Origin: Candidatus Bathyarchaeota archaeon
GTDB lineage: Archaea > Thermoproteota > Bathyarchaeia > Bathyarchaeales > Bathycorpusculaceae
Direction of reading: 5' to 3'
NCBI GenBank assembly: GCA_026014705.1
Contig: JAOZHU010000010.1
Span: forward strand, 1 to 46,833
DNA length: 46,833 nucleotides
Shown here in pieces: positions 8,346-27,945 of this stretch. The position numbers and the translations under genes are program-made. Positions within the stretch are counted from its first letter, which is position 1. The number at the start of each line of letters is the position of its first letter. The notes under the pieces were generated by a model, which did not search any database, was not told the origin of the DNA, and saw only the letters and a program-made list of their open reading frames with translations.

Positions 8346-8358
8346 TTTTTAGGCTCCT

Positions 8359-9180: not shown

Positions 9181-10253
9181 CGCCAGGTTCGCCTCTTTTT
9201 GCTCATTAGCATGTAAATGAAGAATGGCACACCGAGCAGGGATGTTACTATGCCCACTGGAAGTTCTGTAGGCTGAAGCACAAGCCTGCCTACCGTATCA
9301 GAACACAAGAGCAATAAAGCGCCTACAACGGCGCTGCAGGGTATGAGAAACCGATGATCATTACCTATTAACATTCGTGAGATATGCGGAGAGATTAAGC
9401 AGATGAAACCGATGACGCCTGTAAAAGCGATTATGCTCGCTGTCGCCAAAGTTTCTAGAATCATGGTTATTGTTAATACTCTTTTTGTGTGAACCCCTAG
9501 ACTTGTTGCCACTTCCTCGCCCATGCTTGTAACATTGATGTTCCAAGACTGCTGAACCATGAAAACAAATGTAACGATGACTATGGGGAAAACTGCAAGA
9601 ATACTTTCCCAAGTTGCTGAGTTAAGACCACCCATAAGCCAGAAAACCACCGCCCGCACAGCTTGATGCTCAGGTGCAACATACTGGATCAAAGATAAAA
9701 GTGCGGAAAAGAGGTAGCCAACAGCGACCCCTGCTAAAATTACGGTTTCAGTAGTTATTCCACGCAAGCGAGCAATGCCATACACCAATACCATAGCAAG
9801 CATGCTGAAGACAAAGGCGTTAATAATCATCAAGTACTTGCCGTATCCCTCTATTACGCCTATTCCGAAAACGATGGCTAATGCTGCACCGAAACCTGCA
9901 GCCGCAGAGATGCCCAAAATATAAGAAGAGACCAGAGGGTTACGCAGCACGCCCTGCATCGTAGCACCAGAAGCAGCTAACCCTGCTCCTGCGATTATTG
10001 CCATAACTATGCGGGGAAGCCTCAAATCCAAAACTATCGTTTGAGTTAGAGTGGGACCAGGATCAATTTGGAGAAAAGGAAACAGTCTCGCAAGGATAGC
10101 TTGCATGGCTTCGTTAAATCGAGGTGAGCCAGCACCAAGACTGACTGAAACCACAACAGCTACGAGCAGCGCTAAAAAAATGAAGAGTATGGCAAGAATT
10201 TTGCGTTTCTTGCCTTTCTGATAGAGTTTCTTAAGTTCAGCAGCCGTGCTCAT
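9177..10253 (-). CDS. btuC: Corrinoid ABC transporter permease (BtuC/FecCD family)
   Basis: This 358-residue polytopic membrane protein has about ten hydrophobic segments in FecCD order: LRLPRIVMAIIAGAGLAASGATMQGVLRNPLVSSYILGISAAAGFGAA, the TVILAGVAVG region, and near the end GFICLISPHISRMLIGNDHR followed by ELPVGIVTSLLGVPFFIYML. It forms the channel of a BtuCD-type importer. It overlaps the binding-protein gene and the ATPase gene by 4 bases each, so BtuF-C-D form one tightly coupled unit. Confidence 0.88.
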   Translation of the reverse strand: MSTAAELKKLYQKGKKRKILAILFIFLALLVAVVVSVSLGAGSPRFNEAMQAILARLFPFLQIDPGPTLTQTIVLDLRLPRIVMAIIAGAGLAASGATMQGVLRNPLVSSYILGISAAAGFGAALAIVFGIGVIEGYGKYLMIINAFVFSMLAMVLVYGIARLRGITTETVILAGVAVGYLFSALLSLIQYVAPEHQAVRAVVFWLMGGLNSATWESILAVFPIVIVTFVFMVQQSWNINVTSMGEEVATSLGVHTKRVLTITMILETLATASIIAFTGVIGFICLISPHISRMLIGNDHRFLIPCSAVVGALLLLCSDTVGRLVLQPTELPVGIVTSLLGVPFFIYMLMSKKRRTWR

Positions 10254-11440
10254 GGATACACAAATACTCCTGTTAATTCAGCGCCGAAGAACCTGCGGAT
10301 ATATTCTCTATGTACCGCCGTGGGATCTATGTCTTGGAAAATACTTGGGTGCTGCCACTTTGCAAAATAGAGCAAACCGATTACTTGCCGCTCAACCAAA
10401 AGCGCACTCTTAATCACGTAGACTCTGCCTTCTTTGACCGCCGTAGTCCCGCTTAATGCTGTTCGAGTGAGCATGTCGTCTCTTAAATTCTGGAACGCGA
10501 CTAAATTTTCGCCATCCAAGTAGGTTAGCATTCGGATAATTACCGCTGGATTTGCCTCAGCCACGAACTCTGCACTCAACTGGGGAGAACTGACTGTGGC
10601 GTTTTCAGCAATGTTTATGCCGCCTGCTGCGACTATCATCTCAGTATACGAGCCGCCTGGACCAGTGCTAAACCACTGTTTATACCACTCAAAAAAGACT
10701 AAGGGCTTCGCACTTCTCGCCAGCCCCGCAGTACGCGTATTTACTAGATTCACGTAATACTGCTCATACGCGATGAGCTCCTCAGCTTTTGCATCTGCTT
10801 GCAGAATTAAACCCAAGTTTCGTATGCAGTCGTTCCGCCTTGGCCACGTTAAGGTATCCTCTATCACCGCTACACCAGCGTTTTCGAGTTTCTTCCTGTT
10901 GTCATCAGAGAGTCTCTGACTTGCAAGCACTAAGTCAGGCTGCAGCTCTAGAATCAGTTCCAAATTTGGAGCCATATCTGTGCCTACATCACGTAACGAT
11001 GTTAACAGTGAAGAGGGCAGCACAGCGGCGGTGTCGGAACTCAATTTTGCATCGTATTCTACAATTCTGTCGCCAGCACCTAAGAGGTACACAGTTTCAA
11101 TCATGGTGAGACAAATTATGCGCTTCACTGGAAGAGTAACAGTTACCTTAGCCCCGTTTTTGTCTACTACAGTTATTTCCATTGGAACGTGTGTATTCTG
11201 TGGCAAACTTGGTTGTAGTGGACTCGGTGATTGCGTGGCGTTTGAACCGGCAGTCGAAGAGGAAGAAGGAGTTGGAGTTGGTGAAGACGGTGTTTGGCTA
11301 GGCGTTGACGCAGGAGATTGAGATGGAGTTGGTGACAAGGAAGGCGCCGCTGAGAAGCTAGTCAGACTATAGGCTCCGTAGACTGAAACAATGACGATTA
11401 TACCGATTACGAACAATGCAGCAATTAGGTTTGTTCTCAT
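10250..11440 (-). CDS. btuF: Membrane-anchored corrinoid-binding protein (BtuF-like), copy 2
   Basis: This 396-residue protein has an N-terminal hydrophobic segment (about residues 5-25) with no lipobox cysteine, a Pro/Ser/Thr-rich tether (about 30-85) and a periplasmic-binding domain of the FecB/BtuF fold: VKRIICLTMIETVYLLGAGDRIV, LELILELQPDLVLA, AAGGINIAEN and AEFVAEANPAVIIRM. It would capture corrinoids outside the cell and deliver them to BtuC. It is paralogous to the gene just upstream, sharing the AGGINIAEN and EFV-E-NPAVIIRM blocks and an RFFG...YP terminus. The 88-base gap between the two copies holds an SD-like GAAGGATGTGA but no clear TATA box. Confidence 0.85.
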   Translation of the reverse strand: MRTNLIAALFVIGIIVIVSVYGAYSLTSFSAAPSLSPTPSQSPASTPSQTPSSPTPTPSSSSTAGSNATQSPSPLQPSLPQNTHVPMEITVVDKNGAKVTVTLPVKRIICLTMIETVYLLGAGDRIVEYDAKLSSDTAAVLPSSLLTSLRDVGTDMAPNLELILELQPDLVLASQRLSDDNRKKLENAGVAVIEDTLTWPRRNDCIRNLGLILQADAKAEELIAYEQYYVNLVNTRTAGLARSAKPLVFFEWYKQWFSTGPGGSYTEMIVAAGGINIAENATVSSPQLSAEFVAEANPAVIIRMLTYLDGENLVAFQNLRDDMLTRTALSGTTAVKEGRVYVIKSALLVERQVIGLLYFAKWQHPSIFQDIDPTAVHREYIRRFFGAELTGVFVYP

Positions 11441-11528
11441 GGCGTTTCACATCCTTCACTACTAACGGTTCCATTGTCACGAGTGCACATGGCCTTGTTA
11501 TCAAGCATTTTTAATTCAGTTGTCGTGA

Positions 11529-12734
11529 TCATGGATACGCAAATGTCCCCCCGACGGTTATTCCGAAAAACCTTTGATATAGTTCAGCGTTGACTGCAGC
11601 TGGATCTATGTCTGCAAACAGAGTAGGCTGACACCACTTTGCCCAGTAAAGGTAGCCGACTACGCTAGTGATTCCACCTCTAATATTCCAATCACAGATG
11701 TAGACTCTACCATTTTTAATGGCGTCTACATTGCTCAATGCAGTTCGACCTAAGATTTCATCTCTGGCAGCTTTGAAATCCGCTTCAGCATGTGTTAAAC
11801 TGCTTTCCATGCGGATTATAACTGCAGGGTTCTGCTCAATCACAAATTCAGCGCTAAGCAGAGGCGCATAGACTGTTTGGTTTTCAGCAATGTTGATTCC
11901 GCCAGCTTGGTCCAATCCAGGAGTGACAAAAGTGTAGTAGGGCTGGTACCATTCAAGCATAACTTTAGGTCTCTGCGTCGGGCTCAAAGTAGCAATGCGC
12001 TGCTTCACGAGGTTGTTGTAGTATTGGACGTAAGTTACGTATTCGGTAGCTTTAGCTTGGTTGCCTACTATCGAAGCCAATTTACTCAACAAGTCGCAGC
12101 TAAAGTCTACCACTGTAGAATTAGAATGCTTCGTCGGTTCAGGATCAGTCGGATCCGAAATGAAAATCGGTATACCTGCATTTGCAAGTTGACCCATAGC
12201 TACGGTGTTATAAGGCAGCATAGAATCAGCAAATATCACATCAGGCTTCAGCTCCAAGATCAATTCAACATTCGGGTCGTATGAGCTACCGCCTACAACG
12301 GTTACGTTCAAAACAGAAGGCGGCATAGTTGAACTCTGATCGCGCCCCACAAGCTTATTCTGTACGCCTAAGGCGCAGAGCATTTCCGTTAAGCCAGAAT
12401 TGATGCTTACAATGCGGTTTATTGGAACAGTCAAGGTGACGTTTCTGCCAGCGCCGTCCACAACCGTGATGTTTGTAGGTCCAGGCGTTGGAGTTGGCGT
12501 AGGCCCAGACGCGGCTGGTGTTGTATGAGTTGGTGTGGGCGTTGGTGTTGATGTGCTGCTTGGTGTAGGCGTTGCTAAAGATGGCGAAGGTGAAGCCGTT
12601 GGATTTGAAGATGGAGAAGCGGATGGCGACGGCGATATCGAAGGCGTAGGCGCTGCGGGCAGAGAAGTATAGACAGCGGCTGTTGCAATCGTAGCAATTA
12701 TAAGTGCAGCTAGAACAATTGTCAATTTATTCAT
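11529..12734 (-). CDS. btuF: Membrane-anchored corrinoid-binding protein (BtuF-like), copy 1
   Basis: This 401-residue protein has an N-terminal membrane segment, a long Pro/Thr/Ser tether (about residues 25-90, a likely glycosylated spacer) and a BtuF/FecB-type domain with NRIVSINSGLTEMLCALGVQNKLVG, NVELILELKPDVIFAD, QAGGINIAEN and EFVIEQNPAVIIRM. ATG12734 is chosen over the in-frame GTG at 12743 because AAGGAGGTGA, which contains the TGA of chlID, lies six bases before it. It is a tandem paralogue of the next gene downstream; the loops differ enough that ligand preference may differ. Whether it binds cobalamin, cobinamide or a metal chelate cannot be told from sequence. Confidence 0.84.
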   Translation of the reverse strand: MNKLTIVLAALIIATIATAAVYTSLPAAPTPSISPSPSASPSSNPTASPSPSLATPTPSSTSTPTPTPTHTTPAASGPTPTPTPGPTNITVVDGAGRNVTLTVPINRIVSINSGLTEMLCALGVQNKLVGRDQSSTMPPSVLNVTVVGGSSYDPNVELILELKPDVIFADSMLPYNTVAMGQLANAGIPIFISDPTDPEPTKHSNSTVVDFSCDLLSKLASIVGNQAKATEYVTYVQYYNNLVKQRIATLSPTQRPKVMLEWYQPYYTFVTPGLDQAGGINIAENQTVYAPLLSAEFVIEQNPAVIIRMESSLTHAEADFKAARDEILGRTALSNVDAIKNGRVYICDWNIRGGITSVVGYLYWAKWCQPTLFADIDPAAVNAELYQRFFGITVGGTFAYP

Positions 12735-12739
12735 GCTTT

Positions 12740-14758
12740 TCACCTCCTTAACTCATGATTCGCAAGTTCGGAGTCATGAGGTAAGTTGCCATAAACTGCC
12801 GAAATCATAGATGTGGCGTTCAATTCTTCCAACCGCAGATATTTTCCACTCAGTTCGGTGCTTATCTGCTTTACCAAACCAAATGAAATAAAATCGCGTT
12901 CGGTATCAATTGCAATCGATTTGATGCCAGCCGAATTTATCGCACGAGCCGCTGCCTTTGCGTCCTCCACGGGGTCTCCACCGTTGAGAGGAACATTTGC
13001 CCGACCATCAGAGACCAGCACCATAAGCGGAATCATCTCTTTGTCTCTTCTCACATGCTCCTTAACAGTCTCCAGCCCGAGGTTTAATCCATGAGCCATA
13101 GGGGTGCGTCCACCCGTAGGCAGTTTGGCCAAACATCTCTGAGCGAGCTCCACACTATTAGTGGGAGGTAGCACCAACTCAGCCGTGTTTTTTCTGAATG
13201 CAATCATTCCCACGCGGTCTCGTCGCTGATAGGCATCAAGCAAAAGGGAAACGATTGCGCCTTTCGTTGCTGTCATCCTCTCTTCGGCAGCCATAGAGCC
13301 GCTGGCATCAACCACAAACACGATTAAATTGCCCACTTTCCTTTCCCGCACCTTCTCTCGCAAATCAGAATTTTCTATAAGTAATGCACATGCGCTGCCT
13401 GATTCTTTCTTGCGCCGATTTTGAAATGGTGCAGCTGCTCTCAAAGTAGCGTCAAAAGCCAAATCCGACACCTTCCCTTTAGGGATAGCACTAGCTACAT
13501 AGCGCCCAGTCTTGGAGCTGCTCCTGCTTTTTGACCTGCGCCCGCGGTTGCTGCGTTTCATCTGATCTAGAACAGGCGTAGCAAGACGCTTTACAGGATA
13601 TGGAGAAGCTGCTTCAAATACCTGCTCGGTTTCAGGCTCCTCTTTTTCCTGCGAATTTTCAGCGTTATTATCTTTGGGAGAATTCTGTTCGGAAGGTGGT
13701 GATTGCTGCTTTTCTCTGTTTTGGTCCCATCTTTGAATACTCTCCTGAAGCTGTTGCTGTTCCAGTTTCGGCTCCTCAAAAGGTTGACGACGGCGACGAT
13801 GAGGAAGCGCCAACTCGGCTGCCTCTTTAATGTCATCTTCGATGACTTCTGTGCGTCCCTTGAAAGCCGCGAGGGTGCAGGCAGTTTTGTAAATTGTGAT
13901 ATCAGCTCTGTGTCCATCAACAGCGAAGTCTATGCAGATTTGAGTGATTAGGTTCAGCATCGCATCGCTTAGTGTCACTCTATGTAAAAGTTTGCTGGCT
14001 TCAACGATTTTGTTACGCATCTGTTTTTGGCTGTCACGGTATGCGGCAATAAATGCGGCAGGATTAGTTTCAAAAGCGACGCGCCTTCGCACTATTTCCG
14101 CTCTAGCCTCTCGATAAGGAATGCCTTTGACTTCAACCGAGAGGGCGAAGCGATCTAAAAGTTGAGGGCGCAATTCACCTTCTTCCGGGTTCATTGTGCC
14201 CACTAAGACGAACTGCGCAGGGTGACTGAAAGAGACTCCTTCGCGCTCCACATAATTTACGCCCATTGCGGCAGCATCAAGTAGAACATCAACGAGATGG
14301 TCATCCAGCAAGTTCACTTCATCAATATACAGGATGTTCCTGTTGGCTTCTGCAAGAATTCCCGGTTCAAAATGCCTTTCTCCAGTTTTAATTGCCCTTT
14401 CGATGTCGATGGTGCCTACCAACCTGTCTTCGGTAGCCCCAATTGGCAGCTCCACCACTGATACAGGTCTCTTGGTAACGGGGAGTTTTTTGCCATTAGC
14501 TAATTTTGAACTGCATTCATCACACAGTTCTTTCGGGTGTTCAGGATCACAGTGAAATGGGCAATCGGCTACCACATTTAATTCTGGGAGAAGATTAGCT
14601 AAAGCACGTACGATCAAGGATTTGCCTGTTCCTTTTTCACCTCGAAGGAGAACGCCGCCGATTTTCGGATTTATGACGTTAAGAATAAGCGCCGTTTTCA
14701 TTTTTTCTTGCCCAACAACAGCGCTAAAGGGATAAACGGTTTTAGCTCGCCAATGCAT
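12740..14758 (-). CDS. Fused ChlI-ChlD chelatase ATPase (CobN partner)
   Basis: This 672-residue protein joins both auxiliary subunits of a CobN/BchH-type chelatase. The N-terminal AAA+ domain (about residues 8-320) has Walker [16 protein letters not shown], Walker [21 protein letters not shown] and [22 protein letters not shown] Gln/Glu/Pro-rich acidic linker (about 325-385) follows. The C-terminal vWA domain has the MIDAS motif [14 protein letters not shown], then [10 protein letters not shown] and LVSDGRANV. In Mg-chelatases the ring drives metal insertion and the vWA domain docks on the large subunit. It is the first gene of the operon ending in cobN-cbiZ, which argues for a cobalt function. 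ATG14758 lies about 13 bases after the predicted transcription start. Confidence 0.88.
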
Positions 14759-14773
14759 GCATGTTTCCCACTT

Positions 14774-14822
14774 GGCTGGATTATCCAGCTTGCTATATAA
14801 ATGTTCGTTTAACTGAAGTTAA
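14774..14822 (-). promoter_or_regulatory. chlID operon promoter with two flanking palindromes
   Basis: On the minus strand the order is: a TTAAC-TGAA-GTTAA palindrome (14809-14822), a TATA box TTTATATAGC (about 14793-14802) preceded by the BRE-like CGAACA, and a perfect 15-base palindrome GCTGGATTATCCAGC (14775-14789). The predicted start of transcription is near 14771. The second palindrome therefore lies between TATA and +1, where a repressor would block polymerase. The same three elements in the same order precede cbiM. Confidence 0.75.
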
Positions 14823-14894
14823 ATTCAGGTTGAATAAACATCAGCACTTAACAGTCATTAAGACAAAATCATGCAGACGTTGCAAAAATGCCGC

Positions 14895-14930
14895 TTTGGT
14901 TGGATTGTCCAGCCAAATGCTTATATGAAC
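14895..14930 (+). promoter_or_regulatory. cobD promoter with B12-regulon palindrome
   Basis: Bases 14895-14917 form an inverted repeat with nine of eleven pairs perfect, centred on 14906; its core TTGGATTGTCCAG matches the palindromes before chlID and cbiM. It is followed by CTTATATGAA (about 14920-14929), with AAAT upstream as a BRE. Here the palindrome covers the BRE side of the TATA box rather than the start site. If this TATA is used, a leader of about 135 bases precedes cobD. I saw no cobalamin riboswitch features in that leader, only a 28-codon open frame at 14992. Confidence 0.6.
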
Positions 14931-15084
14931 TCATTCCTAAACAATGTGCGTAATGATGCTGCATAATAGGCTCTGATAGAAGATTGGGAGGATGCGAAGC
15001 AAATTGGTTACCAGCGTTTCTGCGTCGAACCATGCTATAGCGGTGACAATTGACTATTCTGAAGTTGCTGGTAGGTGATTGGTA

Positions 15085-16227
15085 GTGAATTCGGCTATAA
15101 GTATGATTCGGGAGAAAAACAAGAATCTTAAGCCGTGCATTCATGGAGGTGCGGTTTGGGAAGCCGCAAGCATGGCAGGTTTTAGGCGAGAAGAAATTTT
15201 GGATTTCAGTTCAAGCGTTAACCCTCTTGGACCTTCTCCTAACGCGCTTGAAGCAATGAGAGGCAGTTTTGGGCAAATTGCCAGTTATCCAGATTCGAAT
15301 TCTACACAATTGCGCAAGGTCATTGCTAACCATTTTAAAGGAATCAGCGGGGACAACGTGATCGTCGGTAACGGTTCTACCGAGCTCATTTATTTGTTTG
15401 CGGAGACTTTTATGGAAAGAGGTGATTTGGCGCTTGTTCCTGCGCCTACATTTAGTGAATATGAGAGGGCGGTGAGAAAAGCAGAGGGAAGGCTTAAATT
15501 CGTAAAGTTGGATTCGAGGTTTCATGTTAACCCAAACGCTTTTGCACGTGCGTTGAAGGGCAGCAGGGTTGCGTTTTTCTGCAATCCGAACAATCCCACC
15601 AGTGTTCTCACGCCAGCCGAGCGTTTGACTGCAATTGTCGAGAGGGCGCTTGAGGAGAACGCCTTTGTTTTTCTCGATGAAGATTTCCTTGAGTTTGTTG
15701 ATGAAGGAGAGCGCTTTTCGTTAATAAGCAAGATACGCTTATACGCTAACCTTTTTGTTTTGAGGTCGTTCACAAAGATTTTTGGGTTAACGGGGCTTAG
15801 AGTAGGCTACGGAATTGCTTCTGAGGAAATCATCAGTCTCATGCTGGATGCCAAGTTGCCTTGGAATGTTAACTGTTTAGCGCAGTCTGCTGCCGTAGCA
15901 GCGCTGGCAGATGAGGAGCATTTGAAGAAGACGCGTGAACTTATCAGGGGCGAAAAAGCATTTTTGACGCATGGTTTAAAACGGATTAAAGCTTTTAAGG
16001 TGTTTCCAGCTGACGCAAACTTCATACTCATGGACGTTAGGCAGTCAGGTTATACAGCTGCTCAAGTTGCGGAGAAGCTGCTGAGGAAGGGGATATTGAT
16101 ACGTGACTGCAGTTCATTCAGAGGACTTGATGAATATTACGTTCGCGTGGCGGTTAAAACTCGGCGTGAGAATGAACGGTTGTTAGAAGCTTTCGAGGAG
16201 ATTGTGGGCGAGAATTATGGTGAGTAG
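15085..16227 (+). CDS. cobD: CobD-like PLP enzyme, probable L-threonine-O-3-phosphate decarboxylase
   Basis: This 380-residue class I/II aminotransferase-fold protein resembles CobD and HisC. It has the N-terminal HGG motif, LDFSSSVNPLGPSP, NGSTELIYLF, FCNPNNPTS, LDEDFLEFVD, the PLP-lysine motif LRSFTKIFGLTGLRVGY and a C-terminal RDCSSFRGLDEYYVRVAV. CobD makes (R)-1-aminopropan-2-yl phosphate, the side chain attached by CbiB, whose gene follows 55 bases later. HisC activity cannot be excluded by sequence, but the linkage to cbiB and the HGG start favour CobD. GTG15085 is chosen because AGGTGAT ends five bases before it; TTG15079 and ATG15103 are alternatives. Confidence 0.82.
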   Translation: MNSAISMIREKNKNLKPCIHGGAVWEAASMAGFRREEILDFSSSVNPLGPSPNALEAMRGSFGQIASYPDSNSTQLRKVIANHFKGISGDNVIVGNGSTELIYLFAETFMERGDLALVPAPTFSEYERAVRKAEGRLKFVKLDSRFHVNPNAFARALKGSRVAFFCNPNNPTSVLTPAERLTAIVERALEENAFVFLDEDFLEFVDEGERFSLISKIRLYANLFVLRSFTKIFGLTGLRVGYGIASEEIISLMLDAKLPWNVNCLAQSAAVAALADEEHLKKTRELIRGEKAFLTHGLKRIKAFKVFPADANFILMDVRQSGYTAAQVAEKLLRKGILIRDCSSFRGLDEYYVRVAVKTRRENERLLEAFEEIVGENYGE

Positions 16228-16282
16228 CCTTCTTTTCAAGTGAAGTTGCTTGGTTTCAAATGGGCGGGTTTGAGCAGGAAAT

Positions 16283-17254
16283 ATGCTTGTGATTGAGAGC
16301 GGTTTTTTTGTTGATTCGCTGCTGATTTTTGTGTTGGCTTTCTTGATTGATGTTGTTTTCGGCGAGTTTCCAGACAGAGTTCATCCAACGGTTGGGATAG
16401 GCAAAGCGATAGCTTATTTCAAGCCTATATTCAAAAATGCGAATCCGAGAATAGAAAAAGCGAATGGCATCATTTTCTGCGTGCTTATCATAGTGCTTGT
16501 TACAGTACCTATTGGTCTTCTGCTTTTCGGCATTAGGCATTTCCTAGGCTGGATACCGTACATTGTCGTGTCTGCAATTTTGTTCAAAACCACCTTTGCA
16601 ATCAAATGTATGAGACAGTACACTGGTTCAATCGCTGGGGCATTGAAAAGTGGGGATTTGGACAAGGCTAGGCGATGGTTGCGTTATGTTGTGAGGCGTG
16701 ACCCAGCTAACCTAAACGAGCAGCAAATTGCCTCTGCGGCGATTGAGTCTATTGGAGAATCGACAACTGATGGAATTACTTCGCCTTTCTTTTTCTTTGC
16801 GTTGTTCGGTGTTCCAGGCGCTTTTGCGTTTCGGGTTGTTAACACGTTGGATTCGATGGTGGGGTATAAGGATAGAGAACATGTGAACATTGGTTGGTTT
16901 TCAGCGAAATTGGACACGATAGCTAACTATGTTCCGACAAGGTTTACAGCTGTGTTGATGGTTGTGGCAGCGGCGCTTTTGGGAGAAAGGTGGCGTGAGT
17001 CTTGGAGGATTCTGCAGCGAGACAAAGCAAAAACCAGCAGCGTCAACGCTGGGTGGACGATGTCTGCTATGGCTGGAGCCTTGGGCGTTCAATTGGAGAA
17101 ACCTGGGCATTACGCGTTAGGAGACAAAGGGAACATTTCGCCAGAACATATTAGGAGAGCGTTGCGAATAATGGATTTGACTGCGGTTTTGTTTGGTGCC
17201 GTGGTGGTTTGTCCGATTTTGGCGGCAGAAGCGCTGGTGCTATGGTTAGTTTAG
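16283..17254 (+). CDS. cbiB: Adenosylcobinamide-phosphate synthase CbiB
   Basis: CbiB joins the aminopropanol (phosphate) linker to adenosylcobyric acid at the membrane. The 323-residue protein begins with a hydrophobic segment followed by LAFLIDVVFGEFPDRVHPTVGIGKAI, the family signature. It also has ARRWLRYVVRRDPANLNEQQIASAAIESIGESTTDGITSPFFFF, the VNTLDSMVGYKDREHVNIGWFSAKLDTIANYVPTR block and AMAGALGVQLEKPGHYALGD. It follows cobD in the same direction and is likely cotranscribed. With CbiZ it can also rebuild salvaged cobinamides. Confidence 0.93.
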   Translation: MLVIESGFFVDSLLIFVLAFLIDVVFGEFPDRVHPTVGIGKAIAYFKPIFKNANPRIEKANGIIFCVLIIVLVTVPIGLLLFGIRHFLGWIPYIVVSAILFKTTFAIKCMRQYTGSIAGALKSGDLDKARRWLRYVVRRDPANLNEQQIASAAIESIGESTTDGITSPFFFFALFGVPGAFAFRVVNTLDSMVGYKDREHVNIGWFSAKLDTIANYVPTRFTAVLMVVAAALLGERWRESWRILQRDKAKTSSVNAGWTMSAMAGALGVQLEKPGHYALGDKGNISPEHIRRALRIMDLTAVLFGAVVVCPILAAEALVLWLV

Positions 17255-17295
17255 AAACTGATGCGTGGAAAAACATATAGCCCCCCTATTTAAAG

Positions 17296-17883
17296 GTGGA
17301 ACTTGTAGAATTGACTCAAGACGTGAAGCATGCGATGGCGTACCCAGTTGAGTGGGAAACCGTATTCACAGCGAAAAATGGCAGAATCCTGCATTTTCGA
17401 CCAGAAAAATCTAGTGACACTGAGATGCTTTGGGCAATGTTTTCAACCCTTTCTGAGGCAACCGTGTCGAACTTGATTCCGCCGTTCACCCGGGAAAGAA
17501 TAGAAGGTTGGACGAGCAACATAGACTACGATGATGTTCTAGCTATTGTTGCAGTCACAGAAGAGGAAAACGCGCAGCGAATTGTTGGTTCGGCATCACT
17601 GAAATTCCAGCCACAGGGAGTCTTCAAACATAAAGCTGAATTGGGGCTTACGGTGCATGACGACTACCAAAATTTAGGCATAGGCGCAGCGTTACTGAAA
17701 CATTTGCTTAACATTGCCAGAAAAAAGAAACTAACAAAAATCTTTCTCACTGTAAATACCATGAACGCAAAAGCTATTCATCTATACCAGAAAGCAGGTT
17801 TTGAAATTGAAGGAATCCTGCGCAAGGAGATGCTTCTGAAAGGTAAATTTTTAGATGAGTACCGAATGGCGCTCTTTCTATGA
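17296..17883 (+). CDS. GNAT-family N-acetyltransferase
   Basis: This 195-residue protein has the GNAT fold: an N-terminal segment beginning RILHFRPEKSSDTEMLW, the acetyl-CoA loop in LTVHDDYQNLGIGAALLKHLLNIARKK (about residues 115-140), then FLTVNTMNAKAIHLYQKAGFEIEGI. The acceptor could be a protein lysine, an amine or an antibiotic; sequence alone does not say. GTG17296 is used. ATG17332 would also leave the domain intact and fits a TATA-like element near 17270-17280. It follows cbiB by 41 bases, but no B12 role is known for this group. Confidence 0.8.
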   Translation: MELVELTQDVKHAMAYPVEWETVFTAKNGRILHFRPEKSSDTEMLWAMFSTLSEATVSNLIPPFTRERIEGWTSNIDYDDVLAIVAVTEEENAQRIVGSASLKFQPQGVFKHKAELGLTVHDDYQNLGIGAALLKHLLNIARKKKLTKIFLTVNTMNAKAIHLYQKAGFEIEGILRKEMLLKGKFLDEYRMALFL

Positions 17884-17945
17884 ACACGCTGAGTAAATAT
17901 TCAGAAAACTTTATGCTAAAATAATCAAAAGACCACGCCGGATAG

Positions 17946-18788
17946 TTAAGTTATTCTTCCATCTTTAACCTCGTAGGTAATTTCGATAGCGCTTTTCATG
18001 TTTGTTGCATCTATCTCTTCGATGACGCGGTTAACCATTCTTCCAACAACGAGCACAAGAACGTTTAGCCCTCTCGAAGCGGCGATGGCGGCGGCGCGGC
18101 TGATTCCGAATTCAATGTCAGCTTTGAGGCGGAGCTTATTCAAGACGGCTCTTCCAACAGCGCCCATAACGCCTATCCTGTCGGGTTTGAACTCGTCATA
18201 AAAAGCGCGAACCTTGCCCAAATCAACGGCTCTGGAGCCACCTTTCCGTATGCTCGGCAACTTGACGATTAAGATTTTTCCTTGCCGTAACTTCAGTTTA
18301 CCCTGCAGGTCTTTCAATCCTACATCTTCTCCCCGGCTGGCGTCCGTTGTGGCGATGCCGAATGCCTCAGCATCAGGGCTGCTTTCAGCTACTGCATACA
18401 AAACGCCTTTCTTCACGGTCAGCCCTACTCTTTCTCCTGTCTTAATTGGCTTTGTTGCCATAGCTGGAAAATTGGGCTCAGTTTTTATTTCGTGTTTGAT
18501 TCGGGTGACGTAGCGCTCCAAGTATTTTATGTCTTCGCCTAGTTTTTCAACCGCTTTTTGGGTAAGCCTGTAGTCTGCTCTTTCCGAGCCAGCTTCCAAC
18601 AAGCCTTCATGCGTTAGTTTCTTGAAGTATTTTGAGACTGCTTGTATCGTAATGCCTAGCGCATCGCTTATGTCCTTCTGCTTAACGTGTGGCTGGTTGC
18701 GCATTACTTCAAACAGGATTTGGAACTTGGTAAACTCGCCCTTGTCCCGTAAAAGGTTGTTGGATAATGTTCTATGCAAACAATTCAA
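17946..18788 (-). CDS. Winged-helix regulator with a C-terminal sensor-like domain; candidate cobalt/B12 regulator
   Basis: This 280-residue protein has an N-terminal winged helix (about residues 20-90: FTKFQILFEVMRNQPHVKQKDISDALGITIQAVSKYFKKLTHEGLL). A short linker is followed by a domain (about 108-275) with GERVGLTVKKGVLYAVAES and a Rossmann-like part DRIGVMGAVGRAVLNKL...IEFGISRAAAIAASRGLNVLVLVVGRMVNRVIEEI. I do not recognise a characterised homologue; similar two-part predicted regulators exist in other archaea. It is divergent from cbiMNQO across a 70-base gap holding both palindromes found before chlID. That makes it the best candidate for their binding protein. No ATG is available near the N-terminus; TTG18788 is used, about 7 bases after the predicted start of transcription. 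Confidence 0.75.
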   Translation of the reverse strand: MNCLHRTLSNNLLRDKGEFTKFQILFEVMRNQPHVKQKDISDALGITIQAVSKYFKKLTHEGLLEAGSERADYRLTQKAVEKLGEDIKYLERYVTRIKHEIKTEPNFPAMATKPIKTGERVGLTVKKGVLYAVAESSPDAEAFGIATTDASRGEDVGLKDLQGKLKLRQGKILIVKLPSIRKGGSRAVDLGKVRAFYDEFKPDRIGVMGAVGRAVLNKLRLKADIEFGISRAAAIAASRGLNVLVLVVGRMVNRVIEEIDATNMKSAIEITYEVKDGRIT

Positions 18789-18795
18789 CCTTGAC

Positions 18796-18845
18796 TTAAC
18801 TAAGGTTAAATAAATGTTTATAAACCTTCGGCTGGATTATCCAAC
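18796..18845. promoter_or_regulatory. Divergent regulator/cbiM promoter with two palindromes
   Basis: TTAAC-TAAG-GTTAA lies at 18796-18809, a symmetric TATA box TTTATAAA at 18817-18824 and GCTGGATTATCCAAC at 18831-18845. Reading towards cbiM, the order and spacing nearly copy the chlID promoter (palindrome centres 36 versus 34 bases apart). Transcription of cbiM should start near 18846 and that of the regulator near 18795, both from the one TATA element. An 11-base half-site, TGTTGGATAAT, recurs inside the regulator gene at 18758-18768. Confidence 0.75.
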
Positions 18846-18858
18846 AGAGAGGGATTGA

Positions 18859-19548
18859 ATGCACATAATGGAAGGCTTCCTACCACACCCTTGGTGGGAA
18901 ATTTGGTTCGCAATCTCAGCCGTAATCGTAATCTTCGGCATCTACAAACTTTCAAAACTCACCAAAAAATTCCCCGAAGCCAAACCACTTCTCGCAGTAA
19001 TGGGCGCATTCATCTTTGTACTTTCAGCCCTCAAACTTCCCTCGGTAACAGGCAGCTGTTCACACCCAACTGGCTCAGGCTTAGCGGCTGTAGTGCTCGG
19101 ACCCGCGATAGCCTCAGTCCTTTCGACAATCGTCTTGCTTTTCCAAGCGTTGCTGCTAGCGCATGGAGGCTTAACCACACTCGGCGCAAACATATTCTCA
19201 ATGGGCATAGTAGGACCCTTCGTAGGCTATGCCCTATGGATCGCCAGCAAAAAGGCGCGGGTACCAACTTCTGCAGGAGTTTTCCTCGCTGTCGCCCTCG
19301 CAGATTTAAGCACCTACGTAACCACATCGGTGCAACTTGCACTTGCTTTCCCCGGAACAAGCTTCGCGGATTCTTTCATAACGTTTGGATCAATTTTCGC
19401 CGTAACCCAAATCCCATTAGCCATTGGTGAAGGCATTTTAGCCATATTTCTGTTTGATTTTCTAGCCAAGTACAAGGGAAAGCTGCTTAGCTCAATGAAC
19501 GTAATTGGCTTGCGCGTTGGCTCGCAGTCTTCGGAGGATGCAGAATAA
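18859..19548 (+). CDS. cbiM: Cobalt ECF transporter substrate-specific component CbiM
   Basis: This 229-residue membrane protein begins MHIMEGFLPHPWW. The conserved N-terminal Met-His and the following His are the metal-binding signature of CbiM, which is why this start is certain. GAGAGGG precedes it. Other family blocks are ALKLPSVTGSCSHPTGSGLAAVVLGP, FQALLLAHGGLTTLGANIFSMGIVGPFVGY and the C-terminal FGSIFAVTQIPLAIGEGI. CbiM binds Co2+ and works with CbiN, CbiQ and CbiO, which follow in order. It is the first gene after the divergent regulated promoter. Confidence 0.95.
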   Translation: MHIMEGFLPHPWWEIWFAISAVIVIFGIYKLSKLTKKFPEAKPLLAVMGAFIFVLSALKLPSVTGSCSHPTGSGLAAVVLGPAIASVLSTIVLLFQALLLAHGGLTTLGANIFSMGIVGPFVGYALWIASKKARVPTSAGVFLAVALADLSTYVTTSVQLALAFPGTSFADSFITFGSIFAVTQIPLAIGEGILAIFLFDFLAKYKGKLLSSMNVIGLRVGSQSSEDAE

Positions 19549-19824
19549 ATGCAGACAAAAATCAAATACACAATTTTGATTGCAGTGATGCTGGCGCTTT
19601 TCGTCACGCCCTTTATCATTGCACCATCAGCAGAATATGGCGGTGCAGACGGCGCCGCTGAAGAAGCAATCAGCGGGCAGGGCTATGAACCGTGGTTTAC
19701 TCCGATTTGGGAGCCTCCCAGCGGCGAAATAGAAAGCTTGTTATTCGCGCTTCAGGCAGCAATCGGTGCCCTAATAATCGGCTATTTCGTTGGGTATGAG
19801 AGAGGGAAAAGAGTAAAGAAATAG
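19549..19824 (+). CDS. cbiN: Cobalt transporter auxiliary component CbiN
   Basis: This 91-residue protein has two membrane segments (about residues 8-26 and 64-84) joined by an extracellular loop with GADGAAEEAISGQGYEPWFTPIWEPPSGEIESLLFALQAAIGA, the CbiN hallmark. CbiN loads metal into CbiM. It starts at the first base after the cbiM stop, as expected for a tightly coupled pair. Confidence 0.92.
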   Translation: MQTKIKYTILIAVMLALFVTPFIIAPSAEYGGADGAAEEAISGQGYEPWFTPIWEPPSGEIESLLFALQAAIGALIIGYFVGYERGKRVKK

Positions 19825-19861
19825 GCTGCACATACCCTGCATATGGTAGGATACTGTAGAG

Positions 19862-20659
19862 ATGAGCCACGTCAAATTATCCGCGGAAATCGATAGGTAC
19901 GCCTACACAAACGCGTTATCAAAAAGTAGCCCAACAACAAAACTTTTCCTCGCACTCTCACTGCTGCTATTAAGCGTCATGTCCCCATCACCAATAGTGC
20001 CCATAAGCATATTTCTAACAAGCACTGTTTTGTTATTGTCCTTCGCTAAAATCCCTTGCCGCTTCTACTTAAGGCTACTATGGTATCCGATTATAATTGT
20101 TGCTGTAACCTGCGTCATCATTGCATTTTTCTTTGGCTACCAAGAACCTTTCACAGAGGTAAATCTGCTGGGATTAAAATGGACAGTTTTCAAGGATGGC
20201 ATAACACTGGGTTTCACTACGTTCTTTAGAGTATTAGGGGCACTTTCAAGCCAGTTTTTCCTTGTGCTAACAACACCCATGACGAGCATAATTCTAATCC
20301 TCCGAAAAGCCCGCGTCCCCAAAGTGCTAATCGAAACATCCTTACTGATCTACAGGTACATATTCGTCTTCAGCGAAGTCATGGAAACAATGCATATTGC
20401 TCAGGATCTCCGCCTTGGATATTCAGGTTGGCTGAAAAAGCTTCGATCAATGTCTATGCTCATTGGGAACCTTTTCATACGAACCTTAGAGCAGGGAGAA
20501 CGCACCTTCACCGCCATGAATGCCAGAGGATACGACGGCAACATCCGCGTTCTTGAAGACCAACCTAAGCCCAGCAAAACTGCACTAGCAGCAATCACAC
20601 TTTTCACAGTTGCACTTGCAATCGCTGCCTACTTGACAATGAACATAAGGATTGTGTAA
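19862..20659 (+). CDS. cbiQ: ECF transporter transmembrane component CbiQ
   Basis: This 265-residue T-component has four to five membrane segments. Its cytoplasmic coupling region near the C-terminal half includes MHIAQDLRLGYSGWLKK and NLFIRTLEQGERTFTAMNARGYDG. The last, an A-R-G motif, inserts into the ATPase. It couples CbiO hydrolysis to CbiM movement. It starts 37 bases after cbiN. Confidence 0.9.
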   Translation: MSHVKLSAEIDRYAYTNALSKSSPTTKLFLALSLLLLSVMSPSPIVPISIFLTSTVLLLSFAKIPCRFYLRLLWYPIIIVAVTCVIIAFFFGYQEPFTEVNLLGLKWTVFKDGITLGFTTFFRVLGALSSQFFLVLTTPMTSIILILRKARVPKVLIETSLLIYRYIFVFSEVMETMHIAQDLRLGYSGWLKKLRSMSMLIGNLFIRTLEQGERTFTAMNARGYDGNIRVLEDQPKPSKTALAAITLFTVALAIAAYLTMNIRIV

Positions 20660-20665
20660 CTCAAA

Positions 20666-21541
20666 ATGCTGTTTAGACTGGAACACCTGTCACACTGCTA
20701 CTCGGATGGCACCCTCGCCTTAAATGACGTAACCTTAGATTTCGCGAAGGGAGAAAGAATAGCCCTTCTAGGCACTAACGGTTCAGGAAAAACCACGCTG
20801 TTGCATCATTTGAACGGCATATTGAAACCCACTTCTGGAAGGGTCTACTTCGAAGACGAGCCGTTAAAGTACGATTCCAAATCGTTGCTTGATCTTAGAA
20901 GGAAAGTGGGCTTCGTTTTCCAAGATCCCAACGATCAACTCTTTGCGCCCACTGTGAAGCAGGACGTTGCGTTTGGACCATTGAACCTCGGGCAACCCGT
21001 AGAGCAAGTTAAAAGAGTCGCAGATGAAGCGCTTAGAACAGTGGGCATGGCTGAATACGCTGAGAAACCTCCACATTTCTTGAGCCTAGGGCAAAAGAAA
21101 CGTGTGGCGCTGGCAGGAGTCCTCGCGATGCAGCCTCAAGTGCTCATCATGGATGAGCCGACCTCAAATTTAGACCCAAGAGCCACAAGTGAAATACTAC
21201 ATCTGCTTCTCCGCCTAAACAAGGAGTACAAAATCACCCTTATACTGGCTACACACGACGTAGACATGGTACCCCTATTTGCAAAAAAGCTATACATTTT
21301 AAGCAAAGGCAAACTTGTATCAGAAGGCTCACCTGAGGAATTATTCGCGAACGCGGAGCTTATTCGAAGCGTCAGCTTGCGCTCGCCCAGAATAGCGCAC
21401 CTTTTTGAAGTGCTTAAGAAAGAAGATAACCTTCCCATAAACCCACGGTTCCCGCTCACAATAAGCGAAGCAAGAAAAGAAATACTCAGGCTTCTAGGCT
21501 ACAGAAATGAAAATGAAGAGAAAGAGACGAGCAATAGATGA
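20666..21541 (+). CDS. cbiO: Cobalt ECF transporter ATP-binding protein CbiO
   Basis: This 291-residue ATPase has Walker A GTNGSGKTTLLHHLNG, Q-loop GFVFQDPNDQLFAPTVKQDVAFGP (typical of ECF ATPases), signature LSLGQKKRVALAGVLA, Walker B VLIMDEPTSNLD and the H-loop ATHDVD. Its stop overlaps the ATG of the NicO-like gene by 4 bases. Confidence 0.93.
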   Translation: MLFRLEHLSHCYSDGTLALNDVTLDFAKGERIALLGTNGSGKTTLLHHLNGILKPTSGRVYFEDEPLKYDSKSLLDLRRKVGFVFQDPNDQLFAPTVKQDVAFGPLNLGQPVEQVKRVADEALRTVGMAEYAEKPPHFLSLGQKKRVALAGVLAMQPQVLIMDEPTSNLDPRATSEILHLLLRLNKEYKITLILATHDVDMVPLFAKKLYILSKGKLVSEGSPEELFANAELIRSVSLRSPRIAHLFEVLKKEDNLPINPRFPLTISEARKEILRLLGYRNENEEKETSNR

Positions 21542-22239
21542 GCACCTTTGAACCCGCACTAATTGGTGTTATCGCCATAGGTTTACTGCACGGGCTAGAG
21601 CCAGGTCACGGTTGGCCAATCGCCCTCCTATACGCCGCAAGAACAACAAAGCCTACAATCTACGCGTTCATAAGTTCAGGCGTCATCTCGCTTTTCCACT
21701 TCATCTCCTCGATAACCGTAGTAGTAATCTACGTTGTAGCAAGCTCTTTGATAGACTTCACAAGCCCAATTCTCAAGTACATTTCCTTCGCAGCCTTGGT
21801 GCTACTCGCCATCAAGCTTTTCACCGAAAAAGTTGAATCCGAACTGGAAAGCCAGCATGGGCACTTCCACGACAACGCTGAAGAACTGCAGCATGAACAC
21901 GAACATGAGCATCCAGAAACTGGTTTCCATGCGCACATGCATTTTCACCCGAAACGAACTAACCTCAACCTATGGAAGATAGCGAGCTGCGCCTTCCTCC
22001 TAGGCTTTGCTCATGAGGAAGAATTCGCTCTTCTCGCGCTCGTAGTAGGCGGAGTTAACCCACTCTTGCTGATGGTAGCCTACGGATTAGCAGTAACCGC
22101 AGGCTTAGTAGGCATAACTGTTCTCGGAGTAAAAATGTACGAGAAGCTTAAGGCAAAAATCAGCCGCTACGAGAAATACATACCCAAAATCAGCGGCATA
22201 GTCCTACTCACACTGGCATTCGGGCTACTAGTAAGCTAA
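21538..22239 (+). CDS. NicO/RcnA-like nickel/cobalt permease with His-rich loop
   Basis: This 233-residue protein has about six membrane segments. The first carries GLLHGLEPGHGWPIALLYAAR, the family metal motif, matched by LGFAHEEEFALLALVVGG in the second half. Between them (about residues 105-142) lies a cytoplasmic or periplasmic loop with about a dozen histidines, a likely Co/Ni-binding region. Family members import or export Ni2+/Co2+. Translational coupling to cbiO puts it in the cobalt uptake operon, so it may supplement uptake or relieve excess. Direction cannot be told from sequence. Its stop is two bases from the convergent cbiH stop. Confidence 0.82.
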   Translation: MSTFEPALIGVIAIGLLHGLEPGHGWPIALLYAARTTKPTIYAFISSGVISLFHFISSITVVVIYVVASSLIDFTSPILKYISFAALVLLAIKLFTEKVESELESQHGHFHDNAEELQHEHEHEHPETGFHAHMHFHPKRTNLNLWKIASCAFLLGFAHEEEFALLALVVGGVNPLLLMVAYGLAVTAGLVGITVLGVKMYEKLKAKISRYEKYIPKISGIVLLTLAFGLLVS

Positions 22240-22241: not shown

Positions 22242-23069
22242 TCAAGACAAGTCATAGCCCCGCGAAGTTACCAGTCTATTACCAACAACACGAGTTGCCG
22301 AGTTCCCCACGATAACAGTGGTAACCATGTCTACCTCAGCAGCCACCACCTCCTTAAGCGTAGTAATTGCCGCGTGCTCACCTTCTCGCCCCGCTAGCCT
22401 AACAATACCCACTGGCGTCGCAGGACTCCTGTACCTAAGCAGAATCTCATGAGCTTTCGCCAACGGCTCCCTTCGCCCCACGCTTTGAGGATTATACAAA
22501 ACCACTACAAAGTCAGCCTCAGCCGCAGCCACCAGCCTTTTCTCTATCACGCTCCAAGGCGTCAAAAGGTCACTAAGGCTAATCACTGCGAAATCACCCA
22601 TCAAAGGCGCACCAAGCTTCGCCGCTGCAGCCGTGGCAGCTGTTACGCCGGGAACAATCTCGATTGAAACATCAGCGTTTTCATGTGCAGCAACTTCTAG
22701 AACCACCCCAGCCATGCCGTAGACGCCTGAGTCGCCGCTGCTGATAACCACTACATGCTTGTTCTTCAAAGCTTGCGCCACCGCAGTTCGGGCACGTTCA
22801 ACCTCGCACCCCATCCGACCGCTTATCACTTCAGCATCAGACCTGACAATGGACCTAACCAGCTTCACGTACGACACGTACCCCACTACCACATCAGCAC
22901 ATTCTATTTCTCGCATGGCTTTGGGCGTCATGTGCTCAAGGGCGCCAGGTCCGATGCCGACTACGCTTATTCGCCCTCGGCTACTGCCACCGTCACGCCG
23001 TTCTGTTTCATCTTTTTCAACATCAAAACTGCATTTCTTCCCGCAATTATTAACGCCGCGCGTTCGCAT
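22242..23069 (-). CDS. cbiH: Cobalt-factor III / precorrin-3B C17-methyltransferase CbiH
   Basis: This SAM-dependent tetrapyrrole methylase performs C17 methylation with ring contraction. Motifs are ISVVGIGPGALEHMTPKA, VVISSGDSGVYGMAG, EIVPGVTAATAAAAKLGAPLMGDFAVISLSD and FVVVLYNPQSVGRR. The homologous region begins about 34 residues after ATG23069. That ATG, preceded by AGGGGG, is the only usual start codon in frame, giving a 103-base overlap with cbiG. There is no ATG, GTG or TTG where CbiH normally starts. See the finding on a possible frameshift fusion with CbiG. Confidence 0.9.
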   Translation of the reverse strand: MRTRGVNNCGKKCSFDVEKDETERRDGGSSRGRISVVGIGPGALEHMTPKAMREIECADVVVGYVSYVKLVRSIVRSDAEVISGRMGCEVERARTAVAQALKNKHVVVISSGDSGVYGMAGVVLEVAAHENADVSIEIVPGVTAATAAAAKLGAPLMGDFAVISLSDLLTPWSVIEKRLVAAAEADFVVVLYNPQSVGRREPLAKAHEILLRYRSPATPVGIVRLAGREGEHAAITTLKEVVAAEVDMVTTVIVGNSATRVVGNRLVTSRGYDLS

Positions 23070-24049
23070 ACGCCCCCTACCCCAATTTTTTCCTCAACTA
23101 ATCTCGAATCAGGAGAAAGACCCCCATGCTCAACCGACCGCAAAGCCTCAACATTAACAAAGTCAATGGGCAAACCCAGTTTCTCAGCGGCACTAAGCAC
23201 ACTTTGTGAGGCTTTCTTGATATCCACCGTTGCTAAGCGGTCTATACGCTCCAAAGGCAAGTCTACCCGCGCCAGCGCCGAATTCACCGCCGCCACTATT
23301 TCACTTGCACTTGAATTTTTCCTTGCACCGATGCCTACGATTACCTTTTTAGGCACCAGAATCGCAATTGTTCTGAGCAACTTCGTTGACGCCGGTTTTT
23401 CAGTGATTATGGCGCCTGCATCAAAATTCTTCAGCGCGTCCACTGCCTCTTTCACAGTATTTGCATGTTTAACATCGTAGCCAAAAATCATGTTTACAGG
23501 GATTCTCACGCCGCCCACTAAGAACAAACCCACGTGTTTTTCGTTCACTAAAGCTGAGTTAACCGCAACGAGGCTGCTTGGGTTTTGGATTTTGCAGTGC
23601 AGAAGCCTAGCAACTTCATCGATGCTCATCTTTCCCATAACCTCAGACGCCGTGGTAATAACGGGTATGGCGCCTATTTCCCTTGCAATAATCCGCGTTA
23701 ACTCGTTTGCGCCGCCATGATGCCCAGACAGCAAGCTAATAGCGAAGCGCCCAGAAACGTCAACACATACCACGGCAGGGTCTGAGAGTTTGCTTCTTAG
23801 GCAAGGGGCGATGGTTCTCACAACAATGCCCGTCGCCATTACGCTTATTATAGCGTCAACTTTTCCGAAGATTTCTTTGATGAATTCGCCCAGTCTCATG
23901 TCCAAGGGCATTGTTCCAGATGGGACGCACTGTTCCGGTGAGAAAACATTGTTCTTAATTTCTTGTCTTTCCAGTGCAGCGCTGATTTTGGTGGCGGTTT
24001 CAACCCCTTTTTTTGTTAGGGCGATTACGGCGATGCCTTTAGAGAACAT
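22967..24049 (-). CDS. cbiG: Cobalt-precorrin-5A hydrolase CbiG
   Basis: CbiG opens the delta-lactone of cobalt-precorrin-5A and releases acetaldehyde. The 360-residue protein has the N-terminal IAVIALTKKGVETATKISAAL, the central DAIISVMATGIVVRTIAPCLRSKLSDPAVVCVDVSGRFAISLLSGHHGGANELTRIIA signature and the C-terminal VIVGIGARKNSSASEIVAAVNSAL with STVDIKKA-type residues. ATG24049 is preferred over upstream ATGs because GAGGCGAT lies just before it. It overlaps cbiF by 11 bases. Its 3' end overlaps the open frame of cbiH. Confidence 0.92.
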   Translation of the reverse strand: MFSKGIAVIALTKKGVETATKISAALERQEIKNNVFSPEQCVPSGTMPLDMRLGEFIKEIFGKVDAIISVMATGIVVRTIAPCLRSKLSDPAVVCVDVSGRFAISLLSGHHGGANELTRIIAREIGAIPVITTASEVMGKMSIDEVARLLHCKIQNPSSLVAVNSALVNEKHVGLFLVGGVRIPVNMIFGYDVKHANTVKEAVDALKNFDAGAIITEKPASTKLLRTIAILVPKKVIVGIGARKNSSASEIVAAVNSALARVDLPLERIDRLATVDIKKASQSVLSAAEKLGLPIDFVNVEALRSVEHGGLSPDSRLVEEKIGVGGVCERAALIIAGRNAVLMLKKMKQNGVTVAVAEGE

Positions 24050-24812
24050 TTTTATCGCCTCTGCGGAAGCCATGCGTGAAAGATGGGTCGTAGAGCTTAG
24101 AGTAATCATAAGCCGCTGGGTCCAAGACGTTTCCTACGAAAATCAACGCGGTCTTTGTTATTTCCGCGGCTTGAGCTTTCTCGACTATATTGTCTAATGT
24201 GCCTTGGACTATTTTCTGTTCTGGCCATGTGGCTTTGTAAACCACTGCGGCGGGTGTGTCTTTCGGGTAGCCTCCTTCTTTGAGTTCTTTGATAACTTCG
24301 CCGATGTGCTGGGCGCCTAGAAAAATCACCATAGTTGCTTGATGCCTTGCCAGTTCTCTGATGCGCTCGGCTTCTGGCACTGGCGTCCTGCCTTCAGGGC
24401 GTGTTATTATGACTGTCTGGGAAATGTTCGGTAACGTTAGTTCGCGGTTTAGGGTTGCTGCGCCGCCCTGCAAGCAGCTTACTCCCGGGATTCGCATGTA
24501 CGGTATCTTTTCTCTGTCGAGAAAATCCATTTGCTCCTGAATGGCTCCAAAGAAGCTCGGGTCTCCATCGTGCACTCTTGCCACGAGTTTGCCTGCTTTC
24601 ACGCTTTCAGCCATTACTTTGAAGACTTCTTCCCTGTTCATGGTGGCGCTGTCGTAAAGTTCAGCGTTTGGTTTAGCGTATTTGAGAATTTCAGGGTTCA
24701 ACAACGAACCAGTATAGATGACCACGTCGGCTTTTTCAAGCCATTTTTTCCCTTTAAGCGTTATCAGCTCGGGGTCGCCTGGTCCTGCGCCGATAATGAC
24801 AACTTTGCTCAT
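24039..24812 (-). CDS. cbiF: Cobalt-precorrin-4 C11-methyltransferase CbiF
   Basis: This 257-residue SAM-dependent methylase has VVIIGAGPGDPELITLKGKKWLEKADVVIYTGSLLN, VARVHDGDPSFFGAIQEQMDFLD, IPGVSCLQGGAATLNRELTLPNISQTVIITRPEGRTP and a C-terminal TWPEQKIVQGTLDNI. The TGS-LN and R-EGRTP stretches separate CbiF/CobM from the other methylases of this operon. Its ATG overlaps the cbiL stop. Confidence 0.93.
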   Translation of the reverse strand: MSKVVIIGAGPGDPELITLKGKKWLEKADVVIYTGSLLNPEILKYAKPNAELYDSATMNREEVFKVMAESVKAGKLVARVHDGDPSFFGAIQEQMDFLDREKIPYMRIPGVSCLQGGAATLNRELTLPNISQTVIITRPEGRTPVPEAERIRELARHQATMVIFLGAQHIGEVIKELKEGGYPKDTPAAVVYKATWPEQKIVQGTLDNIVEKAQAAEITKTALIFVGNVLDPAAYDYSKLYDPSFTHGFRRGDKNVL

Positions 24813-25573: not shown

Positions 25574-25584
25574 AACGTTCTCAC

Positions 25585-26178
25585 CTACACTTTTGTAGCG
25601 GATACTATTGTAATCGGGTTTCTTGCCAGCATCATCGTTCCCGTGTTCACTTCTTTGCCCTTAGCCACAGAAACCGTTATCACGTCCACTTCGCTGAAGC
25701 CCAATTTTCTAACTTCATCTAACGCCGCGTAACCTGTCTCCAAAAGTATCGCGTTAATGACAATTCGTCCATTTTTCTTTAGTTTTTTGTGAACTGCCCT
25801 TATCACTTCTCTTAAGGCATGGCTTCCTCCTACCAAGACAGCGTCCAGTTGCGGCAGGTTTGATAGGGCTTCGGGCGCTTTCCCTAGCATGAGTTGAACT
25901 GTTTGCTGCACGCCAAATCTCGATGCGTTTTCGGCAGTTAACTTGACAGCTTCTGCGTCTTCATCGATAGCGAAGACTTTGCCTGTCGCTGTCACCTGGA
26001 GGGCTGCCTCAACCGTTAAGCCGCCCGTGCCGCAGCCAACATCTGCCACCACTGAGCCTTCCCGTAGACGTGCCTTCGAGATGGACAAAACGCGTATTTC
26101 CTCTTTAGTAGGTCCTATAACGTCATCTTTCTGCAGGAACAGCTCATCTGGTATTCCGGGGGTTCTACAATTCCACAT
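25585..26178 (-). CDS. cbiT: Cobalt-precorrin-6B C15-methyltransferase/decarboxylase CbiT
   Basis: This 197-residue Rossmann-fold methyltransferase has SAM motif I VADVGCGTGGLTVEAAL, the acidic VFAIDEDAEAVKLTAENA and LDAVLVGGSHALREVIRAVHKKLKKNGRIVINAI. CbiT methylates C15 and decarboxylates the C12 acetate, partnering CbiE, encoded just upstream. ATG26178 (MWNCRTPGIPDELF) is chosen over ATG26187 because AAAGGTGA then lies nine bases before the start rather than touching it. Confidence 0.9.
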   Translation of the reverse strand: MWNCRTPGIPDELFLQKDDVIGPTKEEIRVLSISKARLREGSVVADVGCGTGGLTVEAALQVTATGKVFAIDEDAEAVKLTAENASRFGVQQTVQLMLGKAPEALSNLPQLDAVLVGGSHALREVIRAVHKKLKKNGRIVINAILLETGYAALDEVRKLGFSEVDVITVSVAKGKEVNTGTMMLARNPITIVSATKV

Positions 26179-26187
26179 TTTCAACAT

Positions 26188-27940: not shown

Positions 27941-27945
27941 GCTAA

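Follow-up and report, generated by a model that had tools for sequence, protein, structure and literature searches.

The btu, cbi and cob genes are the target genes of cobalamin riboswitches. For some archaea, a DNA site named the 'CBL-box' was reportedly predicted as a cobalamin operator by Rodionov and colleagues in 2003. A predicted cobalamin regulon, with 'CblrR (unknown)' given as its regulator, is also listed in a study of Pyrococcus furiosus, and ThiR and RbkR are recorded as archaeal vitamin regulators (PMC10746257). Literature searches for COG1497, CBL-box and DUF4443 found nothing, searches on PH0730/DUF4443 found no function or operator, PH0730 appearing solely as the name of a transcription factor family, and no literature linking DUF4443 or DUF7839 with B12 was found.

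The DNA palindrome analyzed in this study, termed box B, has the same target gene classes as cobalamin riboswitches, but it is a promoter DNA element rather than an RNA aptamer and gave no Rfam match. It resembles the CBL-box/CblrR system in that a DNA operator and an unnamed transcription factor were proposed there for archaeal cobalamin genes; that system, however, was described for other archaea and is likened to box B by description, not by sequence. Beyond it, the present case has a named candidate regulator, a second box (box A) with its own regulator, and a range including Bathyarchaeia and other members of Thermoproteota. The proposed reader of box B is a member of the PH0730/DUF4443 HTH proteins (2P8T). 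Both candidate regulators are like ThiR and RbkR in that an HTH is fused to an effector domain and vitamin genes would be controlled through a DNA site, although ThiR and RbkR have effector domains akin to thiamine-phosphate synthase and riboflavin kinase, whereas DUF4443 and DUF7839 matched no enzyme domain in searches. We give a probability of roughly 0.7 to the reading that box B is a B12/cobalt operator with DUF4443 as its candidate reader, and that DUF7839 and box A form a second layer.

The window, which is the whole stretch of 46,833 nucleotides analyzed here, is contig C22 of the 1.99 Mb genome of a Candidatus Bathyarchaeota archaeon. Its relevant features are as follows.

3849-14758, minus strand: chlID, btuF-like, btuF-like, btuC, btuD, cobN and cbiZ, putative target operon
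14775-14789, minus strand: box B of the chlID promoter (exact sequence; composite-model match 14772-14835, E 1.2e-14)
14794-14801, minus strand: TATA box TTTATATA of the chlID promoter (sequence; conserved column block in alignment A2)
14807-14835, minus strand: box A ATTCAACCTGAATTTAACTTCAGTTAAAC of the chlID promoter (box-A model E 7.6e-9 in the window, 3.2e-7 in the genome)
14896-14916, minus strand: third box B, a long near-palindrome without box A (composite model matched TATA plus the box B half on the minus strand)
14920-14927, minus strand: TATA-like CATATAAG (sequence; the centre of the third palindrome is 17.5 bp away)
15079-17254, plus strand: cobD and cbiB, adjoining the third site; control by this site uncertain
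17946-18788, minus strand: HTH-DUF7839 regulator gene, proposed reader of box A (Pfam MarR_2/HTH_24 and DUF7839, E 3.8e-19)
18783-18811, plus strand: box A of the cbiM promoter (box-A model E 2e-7; conserved in bathyarchaeal relatives)
18817-18824, plus strand: TATA box TTTATAAA (sequence and alignment A2; palindromic, usable in both directions)
18831-18845, plus strand: box B of the cbiM promoter (exact sequence; composite-model match 18783-18848, E 1.2e-17)
18859-22239, plus strand: cbiM, cbiN, cbiQ and cbiO (cobalt transporter) and a Ni/Co-efflux-like gene, putative target operon

The chelatase-like chlID and cobN are grouped with two btuF-like genes, btuC, btuD and cbiZ in a single run, a context of uptake and salvage and not a de novo synthesis operon. 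A run of cbi biosynthesis genes, headed by a glutamyl-tRNA reductase gene, occupies 22242-30324 (minus strand), and its promoter gave no match to the box-A or box-B models. CbiX followed by CbiC is fused in a single gene at 27946-29016 (minus strand).

Three palindromes fitting GyTGGATTrTCCArC had been reported in the initial annotation, and all are present exactly as described: GCTGGATTATCCAGC at 14775-14789, GTTGGATTGTCCAGC at 14899-14913, which lies inside the 21-bp near-palindrome TTGGTTGGATTGTCCAGCCAA, and GCTGGATTATCCAAC at 18831-18845. They are the sole exact matches to GYTGGATTRTCCARC in the genome (1,985,986 bases, 44 contigs), for which about 0.03 matches would be expected by chance under uniform base composition. 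Two palindromes with one mismatch, C4:117191 and C24:122915, were found elsewhere and rejected as further sites because both lie within coding ORFs. A fourth promoter copy, which the initial annotation overlooked, is located at G000:C4:137959-137993 ahead of btuFCD; here TGGATAAGCCATCCA follows a TATA, between btuFCD and a cobZ-like gene (TIGR03161, E 8e-39, under the trusted cut-off).

The three window sites are all intergenic and each adjoins a TATA-like element, the distances from TATA to palindrome centre being about 15.5, 17.5 and 17.5 bp. This part of the earlier description stood; what needs correction is the orientation of the site at 14899-14913, where the order of TATA and then palindrome is found on the minus strand, towards chlID, and not on the strand of cobD. 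With the TATA-like CATATAAG ahead of it on the minus strand, and a spacing equal to that of cbiM, the third site is more readily taken as a distal promoter facing chlID, or as a shared element, than as a simple promoter for cobD. Elsewhere, cobD is preceded by box B in G218 and G053.

For the search across the class, box B was given the 19-bp form TGGATGGATNATCCATCCA with at most two mismatches, and the reversed pattern was used as control. Of the 251 class genomes, 157 contain it, mostly genomes without DUF7839, whereas the control turned up in about 7. In such regulator-less genomes the composite model mostly matched with its half made up of TATA and box B; the best of these matches lay ahead of btuF/btuC and ECF S-component genes. 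Of 29 inspected sites, 25 adjoin btuF, btuC, ECF-S with DUF4430, cobD, cbiB, a cobZ-like gene, chlID or the regulator gene. These sites were the first matches listed, with a single site taken from each genome, and they lack phylogenetic independence. We take DUF4430 to be transcobalamin-like. Outside the class, box B was identified in families f30, f34, f35, f39, f50 and f54, and in f30 it stands ahead of btuFCD-cobD-cbiB-cobZ and of DUF4430 genes. The arrangement of a CBL-box regulon, with the operator placed ahead of genes for cobalamin transport or biosynthesis, is thus seen at the 25 sites and in these further families. At 39 of 60 unique sites the box B centre has a TATA-like hexamer 12-22 bp away, compared with 5/60 and 9/60 in the control bands. 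Conservation before B12 genes in relatives, on which the initial annotation had made its proposal depend, is evident both at these sites and in the composite promoter before chlID. The proposed DNA-based B12/cobalt regulon marked by the palindrome is borne out, and from these comparisons box B is almost certainly a conserved operator with a B12/cobalt target set.

Among the pattern matches, L188 and L194 appear to be chance coding matches, and those at L206/L207 precede an asparagine-synthase-like gene. A membrane-operon partner of about 265 amino acids with no Pfam match (L147:5859-6662 and L154:2356-3144) comes after an ECF S-component behind box B, and this gene is possibly a new part of a B12 ECF transporter.

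DUF4443, which carries a CggR/PH0730-like HTH, was the one HTH family to recur when the neighbours around box B were clustered, and it is present in 196 of the 251 class genomes. In G023, G100 and G210 its gene and an ECF-transcobalamin-like operon face away from each other on either side of box B; elsewhere the gene lies inside such operons in G016 and G191, ends btuFCD operons in G031, G053 and G048, stands beside cobZ in G001, and is found between DUF7839 and cobD in G218. According to the listed coordinates, 20 of 67 genomes have DUF4443 and box B no more than 10 kb apart, where about 1 would be expected. Box B occurs in 139/196 class genomes with DUF4443 versus 18/55 without (P 5e-7), and in 90/205 versus 4/45 genomes of the phylum draw (P 5e-6), counts that were cross-tabulated by hand, with tests that ignore phylogeny and with absence confounded with genome incompleteness. 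The DUF4443 gene of the same genome lies outside the window (contig C4:24246-24896) and does not adjoin B12 genes; its product has PF14544 above cut-off (E 5.6e-23) together with an HTH, and its predicted structure (pLDDT 88.7) matches PH0730 (2P8T, E 4.6e-11). On its linkage to box B and its co-occurrence with it, DUF4443 is the best candidate and is probably the protein that reads box B. The same contig stretch (btuFCD, cobZ-like gene, DUF4443) appears to be shared by two genomes of different genera, at L150 (G001:C21) and L152 (G012:C77), probably through contamination of one assembly.

It is also conceivable, if rather unlikely, that box B is read by another regulator and that DUF4443 is a neighbour of B12 operons with a different role. 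DUF4443 is common where box B was not found, namely in families f24 and f16 of the class and in f29, f36, f42, f44 and f48 elsewhere, and therefore its presence alone does not settle it as the reader. A scan for palindromes around the DUF4443 gene in G057, G061 and G113 (families f24/f16), where strict box B is absent, found none, and operator drift or another function may account for these cases. Box B is furthermore present in 18 class genomes in which DUF4443 was not detected, most of them incomplete and two representing coding chance matches. Against another regulator stand the fact that DUF4443 is the sole recurrent HTH-like family near box B and a physical linkage far above chance.

Two of the three window palindromes, at cbiM and chlID, form part of a larger, composite promoter also found in relatives. 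In the bathyarchaeal loci, the intergenic region of the DUF7839 regulator is strongly conserved and contains box A (ATTCAACC-N5-TTAAC-N4-GTTAAA), then TATA, then box B; the same composite is also present ahead of chlID in four relatives, and where both boxes occur conservation is higher for box A than for box B. At cbiM, box A lies upstream of the TATA for cbiM, and for the divergent regulator gene it lies between the TATA and the gene start, which would be the usual position for autoregulation. Relative to the start site, the box B of chlID would occupy roughly -16 to -1.

The product of the window regulator gene contains PF25211 (DUF7839, E 3.8e-19) and an N-terminal HTH, with MarR_2 and HTH_24 above cut-off. 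A MarR fold was found in the HTH part alone, the C-terminal domain having no clear PDB match, and the fold search for a clue to the ligand of DUF7839 matched the HTH and nothing else. Structure searches gave no ligand clue for the effector domains of either DUF7839 or DUF4443, and homology between the two domains was rejected because the profile comparison aligned the HTH alone. Homologs of the DUF7839 regulator were found in 7 of the 31 genomes searched, including its own. A scan of named genomes detected 57 loci, of which the 38 bathyarchaeal ones are 59-84% identical and all adjoin cobalt/B12 genes (34 cbiM, 1 btuF and 3 chlID). Of the 31 genomes, the 7 with DUF7839, and no others, gave composite-model matches below 1e-7 (Fisher 3.8e-7), and with the box-A-only model the best values per genome range from 5.6e-8 to 1.6e-4 with the regulator, versus a best value of 0.0038 without it; the models were trained on promoters of the same and related genomes, which makes the positive side partly circular, but the clean negatives and the extra matches (cobN in G030, btuF-like genes in G012) are free of this circularity. 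The co-distribution of site and protein makes it very likely that box A is the site read by the DUF7839 regulator.

Box-A-like sites were also observed before phosphodiesterase-like and alpha/beta-hydrolase-like genes in L141 (G010:C171, 16650-19220), and box A may have targets outside B12 in G010. The methanogen homologs of DUF7839 (L082-L091 and L093-L101; Methanosphaera, Methanocaldococcus and Methanothermococcus) are 32-41% identical and lie away from cobalt/B12 genes. No cbi, btu or chlID neighbours were found in these 19 loci, except for one weak match to a cbiO-like ATPase, so these homologs were rejected as members of the regulon and likely have a different role.

The initial annotation had taken the adjacent regulator (17946-18788) as the reader of the palindrome. 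This was rejected, since most Bathyarchaeia without this regulator still have the palindrome; the regulator tracks box A instead, a motif that the initial annotation overlooked, and it is DUF4443 that is physically linked to the palindrome. A wider form of the same idea, that DUF7839 reads both boxes with GGTTGGAT and GGTTGAAT as variants of one half-site, could account for the two boxes standing on either side of one TATA at cbiM and chlID, and for the likeness of their half-sites, which have GGTTRRA-like letters in common. We nevertheless find it improbable, because box B persists in most genomes lacking DUF7839, the orientation of the half-sites differs, and box B is the more divergent of the two boxes when they occur together.

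Still harder to sustain is the idea that the palindrome is a leader RNA hairpin or a core promoter element instead of a protein operator. A short stem with a 3-nt loop can be drawn, and in some relatives a palindrome of different sequence is found at the same place, but its position, after TATA and ahead of the expected start, should keep the palindrome out of the transcript, and it is mainly confined to B12/cobalt genes and matches no Rfam family. At Rfam gathering thresholds the window gave a tRNA only and no cobalamin riboswitch, and riboswitch control of the window genes was rejected for want of a covariance-model match in the leader. That the palindromes are a chance cluster, as the small number of sites in the window might suggest, is refuted by their genome-wide rarity, their class-wide enrichment over the control and their gene-specific placement.

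As judged by comparison, box B stands just downstream of TATA, before genes for corrinoid uptake, cobalt uptake and B12. Box B (GGNTGGATNATCCANCC) is best explained as the operator of a B12/cobalt regulon acting at the DNA level in Bathyarchaeia and in part of the remaining Thermoproteota. Because it lies between TATA and the predicted start, we infer a repressor that blocks the start site: a dimer of HTH-DUF4443 would bind box B when corrinoid is plentiful and prevent use of the start. Corrinoid is suggested as the co-repressor because the targets are B12 uptake, cobalt uptake and late B12 genes. At cbiM and chlID, a second layer would be added by the divergent HTH-DUF7839 regulator binding box A beside the same TATA. 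This protein would control its own gene and both operons; its signal may be cobalt or an early corrinoid intermediate, the former being suggested because DUF7839 is often paired with cbiM. The ligand and the sign of control are guesses that may prove wrong as readily as right.

For archaea without B12 riboswitches, B12 sensing and control has had no named regulator. The analysis provides an operator, a target list, a promoter geometry and two candidate regulator families, one of which has a solved relative (2P8T). Such promoters could help to distinguish B12 transporters (btuFCD, ECF-S) from look-alike transporters of iron or other substrates in uncultured archaea. More tentatively, DUF4443/PH0730 might be the archaeal B12 regulator, one that reads box B across much of Thermoproteota and possibly the CBL-box in Thermococcales; DUF7839 and box A would then form a second, cobalt-linked layer in part of Bathyarchaeia.
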